Assembly: GCA_022827625.1 (NCBI GenBank) | Contig: JAJEIE010000019.1 | Span: 310,001 to 374,000 of the forward strand | Origin: Candidatus Poribacteria bacterium | GTDB lineage: Bacteria; Poribacteria; WGA-4E; WGA-3G | Length of the DNA: 64,000 nt | Reading direction: 5' to 3' | In this document: positions 28,356-49,732 of the stretch, piece by piece | How positions within the stretch are numbered: the first letter of the stretch is position 1 | Layout of the letters: every line of letters begins with the position of its first letter | Made by a program: the position numbers and the translations under genes | Notes under the pieces: generated by a model | What the model was told of the DNA's origin: nothing | The model's input: the letters and a program-made list of their open reading frames with translations, nothing else | Databases searched by the model: none

Positions 28356-28665
28356 TGGCAATTGGTTGATAATAGTCAAGACGTTCAGTAGCGAATCTTT
28401 GTAGCATACGGTGAATGCCATACGGAGAACCTGAATACCGTTGATTCTGATTTGTTAGTTTGTGCCGCTGTGGGTTGCGAATTAAGTAAAGTTTCGACAT
28501 TATAGTGCATTCCATAATTAATTGGACACTTCTATTGTACCGCAAACTGTTAGTTTGCGCGTCTTCCACGCCTATACACAAACTAACAGTTTGTGCTACA
28601 AGTGTTCACATGTTTTTGGGCTTTACTATAATTGAATAGCCCTAAATTGTAGATGGAGTATTTTC
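28356..28665. other. Intergenic region with palindromic elements
   Basis: 310 bp without a gene. 28432-28451 matches the right part of the MITE-like element (GAATACCGTTGATTCTGATT). 28535-28559 and 28577-28601 are imperfect inverted repeats, each itself palindromic (CGCAAACTGTTAGTTTGCG). A GGAG box precedes the ATG at 28666. I see no convincing promoter. Confidence 0.7.
28535..28601. repeat. Nested palindromic element
   Basis: Left arm CGCAAACTGTTAGTTTGCG and right arm CACAAACTAACAGTTTGTG are each hairpins, and the two arms are inverted copies of each other. A related single hairpin is at 33029-33047. Confidence 0.85.
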
Positions 28666-44431: not shown

Positions 44432-47400
44432 ATGAATTCAGAACAGAGTAGGACAGATTCTCAGTATCCATCCGTTAACCTGTACCCAGGACAATATCTA
44501 CACGGCTTTGAAGTGAAAGCCATCACGCCCATTGACGAATTGCGTGCAGTAGCAATAGAACTCGCACACCCACAGAGCGGCGCACGGCTCTTACATCTCT
44601 ATACAGACGATCCCAAAAACTGGTTCTCAATCAGTCCGATAACCCCAAACCCCAATGACGATACAGGATTAACACATATCCTCGAACATTCTGTAATGGC
44701 AGGCTCTCGGAACTATCCTATAAAAGAGGTGTTCATTGAGATGATGAAGAGGAGCCTCGCCACCTTTGACAGTACGAATGCCATGAACTACTTTGATCAT
44801 GCTTTTTACTACACTTCAAACAATGTGCGGAAAGACTTATTCAATATGGCGGAGGTATTCTTTGATAGCGTTTTTCACCCACTTTTGACGGAGGAAACCT
44901 TCAAACGTGAAGGCCACCATTTTGAACCCGTGGATCCCAATCAACCTACAGGAGATTTAAAAATAAATGGGATCGTCTATAATGAAGTAAAAAGTGGCGG
45001 TCCAGAAGATTACTTGGGTCTGGTTGTTTCCAAAGGACTTCTGCCTGATACCTGTTACGCCTACAATGGTGGCGGGGATCCACGAGCTATACCGGATCTA
45101 ACCTACGAGCAGCTCAGTACTTATTACCAAACTTATTATCGTCCAAGCAATAGTTATTTCTTCTGTTATGGCAATATTCCAACGAGCGATTATCTCGAAT
45201 TTCTCGCCGGTAAACTGGAGGCAATTCCGAAGAGTGATACGAGCGGGTTTCTGCATCCACTCCGACCCGAAGTCACACACCCACCCAAATGGGAGTCGCC
45301 GCGGACTGTGAAAGATGTCTATCCCATTGGACCCGATGAACCTCTCACTGAAAAGACATACCTCATGCTCAATTGGCGCATTGGAGATGCAACGAATCCT
45401 GAGGATGTCGTCTTATGTCGCATCTTAAATCTTATTTTACTCGGGAACGAGGGGGCACCCCTCCGCAAGGCGATTGTTGATTCAAAACTCGGCACTGACA
45501 TATATGATACATATTGGATGCAAGCCGGAGCCAATACACTGGGTCCACATACGACTTTCGATATTGGCTTGACCGGCAGTGAAGCCGATCGCGTTGATGC
45601 GTTCACAGAATTGGTTATCAATACACTAACGCAAATGGCAGACGCTGAAATTGACAAAGAGAAGGTGGAAGCGGCGTTCCAACAAGTCACTTATGACTAT
45701 CAGGAAATCACGCCGAGCTTCCCGTTTCGGATGATGGAACGTGTTGTAAACACTTGGATATATGAAAAGGAGCCGACCCGCTTCTTAGAGATGGGCAAAG
45801 TCCTGTCCATTGTCCGTCAATGTTGGGAGCAAAATCCAAACGTCTTTAATGAACTGATTCGTGAGAAATTTCTTGACAACCCACATCGGTTGACGGTTGT
45901 TTACGCACCTGATCCGGAGATGCAGGCGCGTCTTGATGCGGCTGAGGATGCGCGCTTGAAAGCGGTCCGCGCACAGTTCACCGACGAGCAGATGAGAGAG
46001 ATTGCTGCCGACGCTGTTGAACTTGAACATCGCAGTGGACAACCCAACTCTCCCGAAGATTTAGCGAAGTTACCGCAACTGCACGTCTCTGATCTGCCGG
46101 AAAAACCGCTGCATATCCCTACAACCGTTGAGACGGTTAAGGGGTGTCCGTTACTTCGGAATGAAGTCTTTTCCAACGGCGTGAACTATCTCACACTCAA
46201 TTTGGACTTACAAGGATTATCGCAACATCTTTGGCAATATCTACCCAGGTATACGGACGCTATCACTAAATTGGGTGCCGGTGAGATGGATTACGAGCAG
46301 ATGGCACGCCGTACCGCAGCAGCTACCGGTGGGTTGAGCTGTTCTCCTAACTTTGGTACCCACGCGCTTAACCCTGATCAGCCTGTATGGAATATGCAGT
46401 TTCGACTCAAGGCACTCGACGATAAAATGGAAGATGCCTTGAGGGTCTTGCACGATTTGATTTTTGCTGTGAATCCACGGGATACTGGACGACTTCGCGA
46501 TGTGCTTAGTCAATCAGTAGCAGAATATCGGACGTATATTCACGGTTATCAGTGTTTAGGTATCGCAAATCGTCGGGCTGCCCGCGGACTTTCACCACAC
46601 GGATACCTGTCGGAAATCGTTTCCGGAACAACTCAGTTTCGCGCGAGTGATATGTTGCTCAAGCGTTTTGATGAATCTCATGAACAGCTCAGCGATAGCA
46701 TTGAGCAGATTCGCGACTTCTTGTTAGTACGGAGTCGTGTGAGTGCCAGTTTTACCGGTTCTGATGCAGCTTTTGCAACGCTCAATAGAAAATTGGCTGG
46801 CTGGATTGATAACATGCGTAGTGAGCCGATAAACCCAAAATCAACCGGGTTTAGACCTTTTGACACATATCCGCGCGAGGGATTGGCAGCTCCCATTCAG
46901 ATAGCGAATTGCACACACATGATACCGGCACCGCCCTATTCACATCCGGATTCTGTGCCTTTGACCATTGGGGCACATATCTTGGGGCTTGATTACATGA
47001 TGACCGAAATCCGGCTTAAAGGTAATGCTTATCTGGGAATTTTTGAATATAACCCATTTGATGCTGTGCTCTATCAAGGCTCGGGTTTTGATCCACATGT
47101 CGCCCGTTCGCTTAATGTTTTTGAACAAACCGCTCATCATGTCAATCAGGTGAAGTGGACCCAGGCAGACATTGATCGAGGAATTATCGGGGCAGCGTCA
47201 GACTACCAGAAGGCAATCCGTCCCAGTCAAGCCGCAACCGATGCGCTCACGCGTCATCTTACCGGACAAACGCGGGAAATGTTTGAAGAGAGGTATGACC
47301 AACTCCGACGCGCAACTCCCAAAGAAGTAAAACGCGCACTTCTCCACGTCCTTGAGGAAAATCGGGATAAAGCCGCTATTTGTGTCGTCGCGAGTCGTGA

Positions 47401-47464
47401 GAAATTAGAAGCCGAGAATCAGAAGATGACTCAGCCCCTTCAGATTGAGGATATTTTCAAGTAG
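44432..47464 (+). CDS. M16C-family metallopeptidase, PreP-like
   Basis: 1010 residues. Inverted zinc motif HILEH near residue 90 in GLTHILEHSVMAGSRNYP, with the distal Glu in NGIVYNEVKSG. Two homologous halves joined by a long linker, as in presequence protease (PreP/CymA-type), which degrades peptides in a closed chamber. ATG at 44432 is chosen from GGAG 7 bases upstream; the upstream in-frame codons lie in the hairpin region. No signal peptide, so probably cytoplasmic peptide clearance. Confidence 0.92.
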   Translation: MNSEQSRTDSQYPSVNLYPGQYLHGFEVKAITPIDELRAVAIELAHPQSGARLLHLYTDDPKNWFSISPITPNPNDDTGLTHILEHSVMAGSRNYPIKEVFIEMMKRSLATFDSTNAMNYFDHAFYYTSNNVRKDLFNMAEVFFDSVFHPLLTEETFKREGHHFEPVDPNQPTGDLKINGIVYNEVKSGGPEDYLGLVVSKGLLPDTCYAYNGGGDPRAIPDLTYEQLSTYYQTYYRPSNSYFFCYGNIPTSDYLEFLAGKLEAIPKSDTSGFLHPLRPEVTHPPKWESPRTVKDVYPIGPDEPLTEKTYLMLNWRIGDATNPEDVVLCRILNLILLGNEGAPLRKAIVDSKLGTDIYDTYWMQAGANTLGPHTTFDIGLTGSEADRVDAFTELVINTLTQMADAEIDKEKVEAAFQQVTYDYQEITPSFPFRMMERVVNTWIYEKEPTRFLEMGKVLSIVRQCWEQNPNVFNELIREKFLDNPHRLTVVYAPDPEMQARLDAAEDARLKAVRAQFTDEQMREIAADAVELEHRSGQPNSPEDLAKLPQLHVSDLPEKPLHIPTTVETVKGCPLLRNEVFSNGVNYLTLNLDLQGLSQHLWQYLPRYTDAITKLGAGEMDYEQMARRTAAATGGLSCSPNFGTHALNPDQPVWNMQFRLKALDDKMEDALRVLHDLIFAVNPRDTGRLRDVLSQSVAEYRTYIHGYQCLGIANRRAARGLSPHGYLSEIVSGTTQFRASDMLLKRFDESHEQLSDSIEQIRDFLLVRSRVSASFTGSDAAFATLNRKLAGWIDNMRSEPINPKSTGFRPFDTYPREGLAAPIQIANCTHMIPAPPYSHPDSVPLTIGAHILGLDYMMTEIRLKGNAYLGIFEYNPFDAVLYQGSGFDPHVARSLNVFEQTAHHVNQVKWTQADIDRGIIGAASDYQKAIRPSQAATDALTRHLTGQTREMFEERYDQLRRATPKEVKRALLHVLEENRDKAAICVVASREKLEAENQKMTQPLQIEDIFK

Positions 47465-47498
47465 AATCGTTCAACACGAAGGAAGGCAAGCTCATCCC

Positions 47499-47527
47499 TT
47501 GACAAGCGTCGCGTTACTCGTTATACT
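47499..47527 (+). promoter_or_regulatory. hicA promoter, leaderless type
   Basis: TTGACA, 17 bp, TATACT; the -10 ends 6 bases before the ATG. Confidence 0.75.
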
Positions 47528-47533
47528 ATTATC

Positions 47534-47782
47534 ATGGCGGAAGATAAATTACTGGCGAGAATGAAAAACAATCCACGCGGGGACTGGCGAATTTCTCATG
47601 TTGAAACACTCGCGAAACGATACGGGTTCTGGATAAGGCGACCTGGAGGTGGAGGAAGTCATGTGACGCTACGCCATGATTCAGGGGCGAGATTGAGTGT
47701 TCCCGCCCGTCGTCCGATTAAACCCGCGTATATTCGGCAGCTCGTTCGGTTAATTGAACATCTGGAGGAGGACGAATCATGA
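47534..47782 (+). CDS. hicA: HicA-like mRNA interferase toxin
   Basis: 82 residues. The HicA fold is marked by GSHVTLRHDSG with the catalytic-type His and ARRPIKPAYIRQLVRLI. Slightly long for HicA because of ~20 N-terminal residues. HicA degrades mRNA and is held inactive by HicB. Its stop overlaps the hicB start by 4 bases (ATGA). It has no space for a ribosome-binding site if transcription starts at the predicted place. Confidence 0.85.
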   Translation: MAEDKLLARMKNNPRGDWRISHVETLAKRYGFWIRRPGGGGSHVTLRHDSGARLSVPARRPIKPAYIRQLVRLIEHLEEDES

Positions 47783-48114
47783 GTGAACTGAAGTACCCAT
47801 TTCTTATGAGCATATTGCCCCCTGAAGAAGGCGACAGTTATTTGAGCAAATTTCCTTCTCTACCAAAGTATCCATTTCTTATGAGCATATTGCCCCCTGA
47901 AGAAGGTGGGGGGTATTTAATCGAATTCCCGGACCTCCCCGGGTGTATGTCTGATGGGGAGACAATTGAGGAAACAATAGAGAATGGAAAAGACGCTGTT
48001 TTTTGCTGGTTAGAAACCGCGAAGGAATTTGGGGATGAAATTCCACAACCCGGCTCTGCCAAAGGATTCAGTGGACACTGGATTCAGCCTGAAGGCATAC
48101 AAGCGGGGACATAA
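47779..48114 (+). CDS. hicB: HicB-like antitoxin with duplicated N-terminal segment
   Basis: 111 residues. Typical HicB: YLIEFPDLPGCMSDGETIEE then AVFCWLETAKEFG. Unlike other HicB proteins the first strand unit KYPFLMSILPPEEG occurs twice, residues 5-29 and 30-54, from a 75-bp in-frame tandem duplication. The HicB fold should use the second copy; the first lacks the DLPGC part. No DNA-binding domain is evident after residue 100. Confidence 0.85.
   Translation: MSELKYPFLMSILPPEEGDSYLSKFPSLPKYPFLMSILPPEEGGGYLIEFPDLPGCMSDGETIEETIENGKDAVFCWLETAKEFGDEIPQPGSAKGFSGHWIQPEGIQAGT
47791..47940 (+). repeat. 75-bp tandem duplication within hicB
   Basis: 47791-47865 and 47866-47940. About 35 bases are identical (CCATTTCTTATGAGCATATT onwards), so the duplication is recent; the later halves have diverged. 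Confidence 0.9.
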
Positions 48115-48116
48115 CC

Positions 48117-48216
48117 GTTCTCCTTATTAAGATCACTTAACGAAAGTTAAAAAGTACTTGACTTTAACGCGCTTTTTCGGTATAATTAATTGTAGGTAAT
48201 ACTTAATAAGGAGAAC
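48117..48216. repeat. Perfect 15-bp inverted repeat flanking the dnaN promoter
   Basis: GTTCTCCTTATTAAG at 48117-48131 and CTTAATAAGGAGAAC at 48202-48216. The right arm contains the dnaN ribosome-binding site. Confidence 0.9.
48158..48186 (+). promoter_or_regulatory. dnaN promoter
   Basis: TTGACT, 17 bp, TATAAT, within the loop of the 15-bp inverted repeat; predicted start near 48193. Confidence 0.78.
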
Positions 48217-48221
48217 TGGAA

Positions 48222-49325
48222 ATGGAATTAACTTTTGAGAAAGATAACCTCTTGTATTCCCTACAGGTGCTACAAGGTGTAGCCAGTGGACAGAGCACTT
48301 TGCCGATTCTCGCGAATGTCCTCATCCAAGCCGCAGACGGGACAATTACGTGTGTCGCTACAGATTTAGAGATCGGCATCAAAATCAGAGTGGACGGTGT
48401 TATTCAAGAAGAAGGTGCTATCACTGTTTCAGCGAGAAAATTAGCAGATGTCGTCAAAGAATTGCCCGAAGATAAAACAATACACTTGGCAACTACAGCA
48501 AATAACCGTGTTGAAATTACCTGTGGCGATGGTGTTTACAAAATTATTGGACTCCCTGACGAAGAATTTCCACAATTACCCGCTATTGACGGTGAATCGT
48601 TAACAATTGACGGAGATACCCTCCGGGCACTGCTCCGCAGAACCGAGTTTGCTGCAGCTACAGAGGAGGTCCGCTACTTCCTAAACGGTCTCTATTTTAA
48701 TTTCCTCGCAGACAGGACCGAAGTGGTTGCCACCGATTCGAGATGGCTCGCCCTCGCACACTGTGACCCGCTCAAGACCCCTGGGGATAATGATGGGTTT
48801 ATCTTACCCCTTAAATCCGTTAAGGAGATTGCACGCACCTTTGCAGATGCTTCTGAGGTAACCCTCTCAATTTTTGAAAATCAGATTCTTTTTGCTGATG
48901 GGAACGCCGTTTTAACGACACGGCTTGTGGACGGAGATTATCCAAAGTATGAGAAGCTCATTCCAGAAGACACAACCGGTAGAGCCGTCGTCTCTAAGGA
49001 GAGTATGTTACCGGCTGTTCGGCGTGTCGCGTTGCTGTCGAATCCGAAAAACTATTCAATCACTTTGGATATGGAGACGGAGCAGATTACGATTTCTTCA
49101 AAAACCCCAGAATTAGGAGAAGCACATGAAACGGTTGCCGTACAGTCTTGCACCGCAACCGCACGGTTCGCGATTGATGCGCGTCTGCTCATAGACATTT
49201 TAGTGCACATCGAAACGGAATCACTCGCCATAGAATTCACGGGTGAATTTGCACCGGTCGTGATTAGACCGGTCGGAGATGAAAGGCACATCTGTCTCGT
49301 GATGCCGATGCGTTTGGAATCCTAA
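48222..49325 (+). CDS. dnaN: DNA polymerase III sliding clamp, beta subunit
   Basis: 367 residues in three clamp domains: LANVLIQAADGTITCVATDLE, the middle FLNGLYFNFLADRTEVVATDSRW split across residues ~155-180, and the C-terminal end ICLVMPMRLES. The MPMRL-type end is the protein-binding pocket strand typical of DnaN. Start ATG at 48222 with AAGGAG at 48208. Not next to dnaA, recF or gyrB; it lies between hicAB and two tRNA genes. Confidence 0.95.
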   Translation: MELTFEKDNLLYSLQVLQGVASGQSTLPILANVLIQAADGTITCVATDLEIGIKIRVDGVIQEEGAITVSARKLADVVKELPEDKTIHLATTANNRVEITCGDGVYKIIGLPDEEFPQLPAIDGESLTIDGDTLRALLRRTEFAAATEEVRYFLNGLYFNFLADRTEVVATDSRWLALAHCDPLKTPGDNDGFILPLKSVKEIARTFADASEVTLSIFENQILFADGNAVLTTRLVDGDYPKYEKLIPEDTTGRAVVSKESMLPAVRRVALLSNPKNYSITLDMETEQITISSKTPELGEAHETVAVQSCTATARFAIDARLLIDILVHIETESLAIEFTGEFAPVVIRPVGDERHICLVMPMRLES

Positions 49326-49392
49326 CGGTATACTTGAGCCGTGAAATATATAGGCGAGGTCTTATGAAGATTAATTTTTTAATTCGGTAATT

Positions 49393-49448
49393 ACCTATCT
49401 GCACGAGATAGGTGTACCCTGCCGCTGGCGAGGTTTCCTAACCTCGCC
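49393..49448. repeat. Two hairpins downstream of dnaN
   Basis: ACCTATCTGCACGAGATAGGT (49393-49413) and a GGCGAGG...CCTCGCC palindrome (49427-49448) like the one at 36797. Either could end dnaN transcription but neither has a clear U-tract directly after it. Confidence 0.7.
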
Positions 49449-49476
49449 TATTTCCTTTTCGATTTTTCAAAAAAAC

Positions 49477-49505
49477 TTGACATTCCTACCGTTTTGTGAT
49501 ATTAT
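49477..49505 (+). promoter_or_regulatory. tRNA promoter
   Basis: TTGACA, 17 bp, TATTAT, 13 bases before tRNA-Phe. Confidence 0.75.
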
Positions 49506-49518
49506 TATATAGCCCAAT

Positions 49519-49591
<73 letters not shown>

Positions 49592-49622
49592 CTTTTTCTT
49601 TTCAATGGTAAGAGTTTGCTAA

Positions 49623-49694
49623 GCCGGTGTAGCTCAGGGGAAGAGCAACTGATTCGTAATCAGTAGGTCGGAGGTTCAAATCCTCTCATCGGCT
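49623..49694 (+). tRNA. tRNA-Thr (CGT)
   Basis: Acceptor GCCGGTG pairs with CATCGGC (one G-T), D-arm GCTCAGGGGAAGAGC, anticodon loop TTCGTAA giving CGT, T-loop GTTCAAATC, discriminator T. 72 nt; CCA not encoded. Confidence 0.92.
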
Positions 49695-49732
49695 TTCATT
49701 TTTTGCCAGCAACTATCGTTTCCCACTTTTTC

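Follow-up and report, generated by a model that had tools for sequence, protein, structure and literature searches.

An inverted repeat around the dnaN promoter of a sponge-associated poribacterium, a possible insulator of clamp translation against upstream read-through

A perfect inverted repeat encloses the dnaN promoter

In the genome of a sponge-associated Candidatus Poribacteria bacterium (G000) we found that the promoter of dnaN, the gene for the DNA polymerase III beta clamp, is enclosed by a perfect inverted repeat, whose 15-nt arms are 100% complementary and lie 70 nt apart in a repeat scan of the window (the whole 64,000-nt stretch of DNA that was analysed). A sequence-only reading of this DNA had described a perfect 15-bp repeat enclosing the dnaN promoter and holding the dnaN AAGGAG in its right arm, and both statements proved correct. 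Tentatively, and with a little less than even confidence, we read the repeat as a clade-level insulator of dnaN translation against upstream read-through. RNA entering from upstream would carry the left arm, which would pair with the Shine-Dalgarno (SD) region and hide it; RNA from the dnaN promoter would start between the arms, lack the left arm and be translated. Clamp synthesis would then be set by the dnaN promoter, whatever the level of transcription upstream. The features are as follows.

47534 to 47782, plus strand: hicA, toxin-like (Pfam 23.5 bits, below the curated cut-off of 27)
47779 to 48114, plus strand: hicB, antitoxin-like (Pfam match; C-terminal ribbon-helix-helix segment missing)
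48117 to 48131, plus strand: left arm (anti-SD arm, in read-through RNA only), GTTCTCCTTATTAAG
48135 to 48153, plus strand: box ACTTAAC-GAAA-GTTAAAAA, shortly before the dnaN -35, recurring across most of the genus
48158 to 48186, plus strand: dnaN promoter-like site TTGACT-17-TATAAT (11/12 matches), between the arms, kept in relatives
48202 to 48216, plus strand: right arm, CTTAATAAGGAGAAC
48208 to 48213, plus strand: dnaN SD, AAGGAG, inside the right arm, kept in relatives
48222 to 49325, plus strand: dnaN, beta clamp (Pfam match)

The spacing from AAGGAG to the dnaN ATG is 8 nt, and from the position of the promoter the dnaN RNA would start near 48193. The box, whose genus form is ACTTAAC-N4-GTTrAAAA, is possibly an operator or an UP-like element.

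Such repeats are rare by chance: perfect repeats of at least 15 bp with a loop of at most 100 averaged 0.005 per 64 kb in 200 simulated sequences of that length (order-1 Markov, with the window's dinucleotide statistics), and the window has a total of 2. The other one lies at 28543-28593 (CAAACTGTTAGTTTG, loop 21), and its 15-mer CAAACTGTTAGTTTG is found again in the dnaN leader of the related genome G021. At up to three mismatches the arm matched only the two arm sites in the window, and at up to one mismatch a 14-mer of the arm matched four sites in the genome, two of which are the arms themselves; the arm belongs to no family of repeats and is not dispersed. MITE or IS ends were rejected as an explanation: the genome contains no further full copy, and what lies between the arms is the conserved dnaN promoter. 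Rfam gave no match at the gathering score over 47400-48400. On the minus strand (48131-48068) the left arm reads by eye as an AAGGAG followed by an ATG and a 14-codon open reading frame; this minus-strand AAGGAG is not conserved in G022.

Among named records the closest DnaN was 96% identical and came from a Candidatus Poribacteria MAG, as did the other nearest matches. The left arm was not seen upstream of either of the two further dnaN copies of this genome. Several members of the genus have tandem dnaN pairs (L059, L060, L063, L065 and others) as well as paralogues elsewhere. One paralogue, on contig C20 of G000 and outside the window (L108:571-2304), is a 577-residue open reading frame in which an ECF-type sigma factor is fused with a complete beta clamp (Pfam Sigma70_r2, Sigma70_r4_2 and three DNA_pol3_beta domains). 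A dnaN match within an open frame of ~575-620 residues was present in 22 of 24 genus genomes, the Pfam domain scan covering the L108 frame only; a search for sigma factor-clamp fusions in the literature returned none among the matches listed. A regulon sharing the promoter block was also considered and set aside, as its two weak genome matches both resemble ordinary promoter-like sequence.

Pairing is predicted to hide the SD in read-through RNA

The sequence-only reading had proposed that read-through RNA would pair its two arms and hide the SD while RNA from the dnaN promoter would leave it accessible, and folding predictions agreed. The predicted probability that the SD is unpaired was 0.001 in read-through RNA, with the arms paired, as against a mean of 0.42 in RNA started near 48193, which would begin between the arms and so carry no left arm. 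When the upstream stretch was shuffled the mean rose to 0.57, and none of 100 shuffles was as low as the observed value. In a longer RNA reaching from the hicA promoter into dnaN (47527-48400) the arm pairs were predicted to form at 0.95-1.0, with the SD unpaired at 0.0. The 151-nt segment 48110-48260 had a predicted fold of -32.4 kcal/mol (z -2.67); shuffled versions did as well in 2 of 200 cases. Ranked by SD hiding among the 23 open reading frames of the window that have an SD, dnaN and one other stood at the hidden extreme, both at 0.0.

For read-through to reach dnaN, transcription would have to cross the hicB-dnaN interval. A scan of 47300-49700 found 4 terminator-like sites vs 2.7 in shuffles; within the interval there was no convincing terminator, the sole match being a 5-pair stem at 48102-48119.

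Distribution of the left arm among relatives

A leader search matched 35 of the 38 genomes of the genus (no match in G018, G046 and G047), and 31 of the 38 were folded, each represented by one dnaN copy, though in several the gene is present in tandem; G043, whose contig ends within the leader, and G015, G048 and G049 were left out. The SD of read-through RNA was unpaired at 0.001-0.106 in all seven close genomes (G000, G022, G044, G052, G050, G021 and G053) vs 0.117-0.849 in the 24 other folded members. In five of the seven (G000, G022, G044, G052 and G050) its predicted partner was the left arm, always at one register, and shuffled left regions reached the observed hiding there in 0, 1, 0, 2 and 0 cases per 100, respectively; in G022 the SD is hidden in part only (0.106). 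In G021 a different stretch, near its box, hides the SD, and in G053 the SD pairs mostly with the promoter spacer.

Imperfect left arms were present in five close relatives that have no hicAB (G022, G043, G044, G050 and G052), the truncated G043 bringing the arm-bearing genomes to six with G000. Neither the close relatives G021 and G053 nor any other genus member whose leader was examined has the arm. Since it is found in six genomes and missing from two close relatives, we regard the left arm as a clade feature; what the clade tells about insulation is mostly of one shared ancestry. The gene upstream of dnaN is preP in G022, G050, G052 and G043, another gene in G044, and hicAB in G000 only. 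As relatives with preP or another gene upstream already have the imperfect arm, the arm predates hicAB, and the view of the sequence-only reading that the device is tied to hicAB was too narrow, hicAB being only its newest neighbour. If it is an insulator, it would first have met read-through from other genes.

The upstream genes are codirectional with dnaN, and in arm-bearing genomes they are near and without intrinsic terminators. From the last base of the upstream gene to the dnaN ATG we measured 108-146 nt in arm-bearing genomes (hicB, 108), as against 447 nt in G021 and 357 nt in G053, a contrast that, in these few and related genomes, would be consistent with a need to shield dnaN from genes close by. 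In other members of the genus, e.g., L013 and L019, preP also ends near dnaN, yet the arm is lacking.

Identity between G022/G044 and G050/G052 is 0.53-0.54 at fourfold sites of dnaN, while the 17-nt left arm agrees at 15-16 of 17 positions (p 0.003 to 0.0004); since the stretch from preP to the arm is itself 63-69% identical in the same genome pairs, the contrast is a moderate one. This conservation makes selection on the left arm probable, whether at the DNA or at the RNA level. An alignment of the stem in five related genomes (again without the truncated G043) had 89.4% of its cells paired vs 34-66% in slid controls. There were no pairs changed on both sides in the five related sequences, a number at which the shuffle control is uninformative, and a G-G mismatch and a U-G wobble were each kept in four of the five.

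The hicAB cassette and the changes on its branch

The locus of no relative examined has hicAB beside dnaN, and since G022, G043, G044, G050 and G052 are without it at this place, it arrived on the G000 branch. The cassette has a promoter-like TTGACA-17-TATACT at 47499-47527 ahead of hicA and aligns over 590 bp with a cassette of G021 at 85% identity. The match stops in the middle of hicB, at a TTCA that is also present in the old dnaN leader, and the final HicB residues are encoded by that leader. The HicB of G021 extends further, with a ribbon-helix-helix segment that the G000 protein lacks and that scores 24.8 bits for Pfam FitA-like_RHH, below the cut-off of 27. At its N-terminal end HicB has a tandem duplication, with KYPFLMSILPPEEG occurring twice, which is shared with the G021 homolog. 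HicB represses its own promoter through its ribbon-helix-helix C-terminal end; if this self-repression holds here, the loss of the DNA-binding end may leave the cassette derepressed and the read-through stronger. A toxin acting on the DnaN clamp is described in PMC12795458, in a system other than HicAB.

Compared with the ancestor of G000 and G022 reconstructed by parsimony, the G000 leader carries six substitutions; four strengthen the stem and two fall outside it. The chance of four in six (p ~1e-5 to 2e-5) is too small a figure, as a perfect repeat was what singled out the site, the stem was defined on G000 and the ancestor was inferred by parsimony. Selection for pairing would give these changes, and a single template-directed copying event together with one additional substitution would do so too. 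The same branch carries both the strengthening of the stem and the arrival of hicAB with the HicB C-terminus cut off, and in G000 the element would now meet hicAB with a perfect stem. A fuller scenario, to which we give a low probability, is that a toxin-antitoxin cassette, bringing its own promoter, inserted next to the clamp gene, its antitoxin lost the DNA-binding end and with it probably self-repression, and selection then perfected the existing anti-SD arm, keeping clamp translation independent of the toxin operon; this would be an adaptive RNA insulator observed soon after a gene insertion.

Alternative explanations

The conserved arm might instead act at the level of DNA, as part of the dnaN promoter (a binding site or an UP-like element); TTAA-rich sequence common to both would then account for its complementarity to the SD region as a by-product. 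This appears somewhat unlikely to us, though some features favour it: TTAA recurs every 10 bp up to the -35 (TTAAGATTAC TTAACGAAAG TTAAAAAGTA), the adjoining box is conserved in most of the genus, the G-G mismatch and U-G wobble kept in four of five genomes are not required by pairing alone, and CTTAATAAG is nearly self-complementary and thus pairs easily with TTAA-rich DNA. Such an element, however, gives no reason for the four stem-strengthening changes on the G000 branch, G021 and G053 retain the dnaN promoter although they have no arm, and G021 hides its SD through another stretch. The pairing might also have no function, an imperfect repeat having been perfected by template-directed mutation (quasipalindrome correction), with chance helping. 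Three of the four changes fall within 7 nt (alignment columns 13, 16 and 19) and match the complement of the right arm, change in the left arm on this branch (4/17) is above the neutral rate (p 0.012), and neither G021 nor G053 has the arm. We nevertheless hold this to be unlikely, since the imperfect arm was conserved between groups whose fourfold sites have diverged to 0.53-0.54 identity, with the SD predicted to be hidden there already; moreover, the change in column 8 sits beyond a bulge, so one simple copying event does not account for all four.

A further possibility accepts the hairpin and reverses its role, linking the two genes rather than insulating them: a ribosome ending hicB would cover the left arm and open the SD, and read-through dnaN would be translated only while hicB is. 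The hicB stop (48112-48114) indeed lies 2 nt before the left arm, and an upstream stop is similarly close in G044. In G022, G050 and G052, however, the upstream stop is ~40 nt before the arm, which means that close spacing is not a kept feature, and a strong stem would be expected to re-form once the ribosome departs. We consider such a link very improbable.

Comparison with known systems

In the transposase genes of IS10 and IS50, read-through RNA includes the end of the element and hides the transposase start, and RNA from the internal promoter escapes this. Unlike these, the dnaN repeat belongs to no transposon, its interior is the conserved dnaN promoter and it has no second copy in the genome. 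In the open-licence PMC literature we found no paper on dnaN together with Shine-Dalgarno, hairpin and read-through, and none on Poribacteria dnaN. The establishment genes of pLS20 were considered as a parallel and dropped, as hiding of the RBS is not described in the excerpted text of PMC8708921.

The closest counterparts are the RBS hairpins of phage T4 (I-TevI, I-TevII, I-TevIII, segB, soc and e) and of Aeh1 (mobE), for which PMC2988022 describes long transcripts from upstream promoters that fold and hide the RBS, and transcripts from a promoter near the gene that are too short to fold and are translated. As in the T4 hairpins, the dnaN repeat has its RBS in the downstream arm, its promoter-like site is placed such that the putative transcript would omit the upstream arm, and the long RNA is predicted to hide the RBS while the short one does not (0.001 vs 0.42). 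The T4 and Aeh1 hairpins differ in serving phage genes whose early and late promoters are timed, and PMC2988022 reports experiments on them, whereas dnaN is a cellular clamp gene, known here from sequence and prediction, and its 70-nt loop holds a whole promoter. The most likely mechanism would be translational insulation by promoter position, of the T4 I-TevI type. If so, the hairpin arrangement of T4 genes would also insulate a cellular replication gene, the near relatives would show the element strengthened on the branch with an upstream toxin-antitoxin insertion, and dnaN would be a simple case of a gene that keeps its own expression as its neighbourhood changes.
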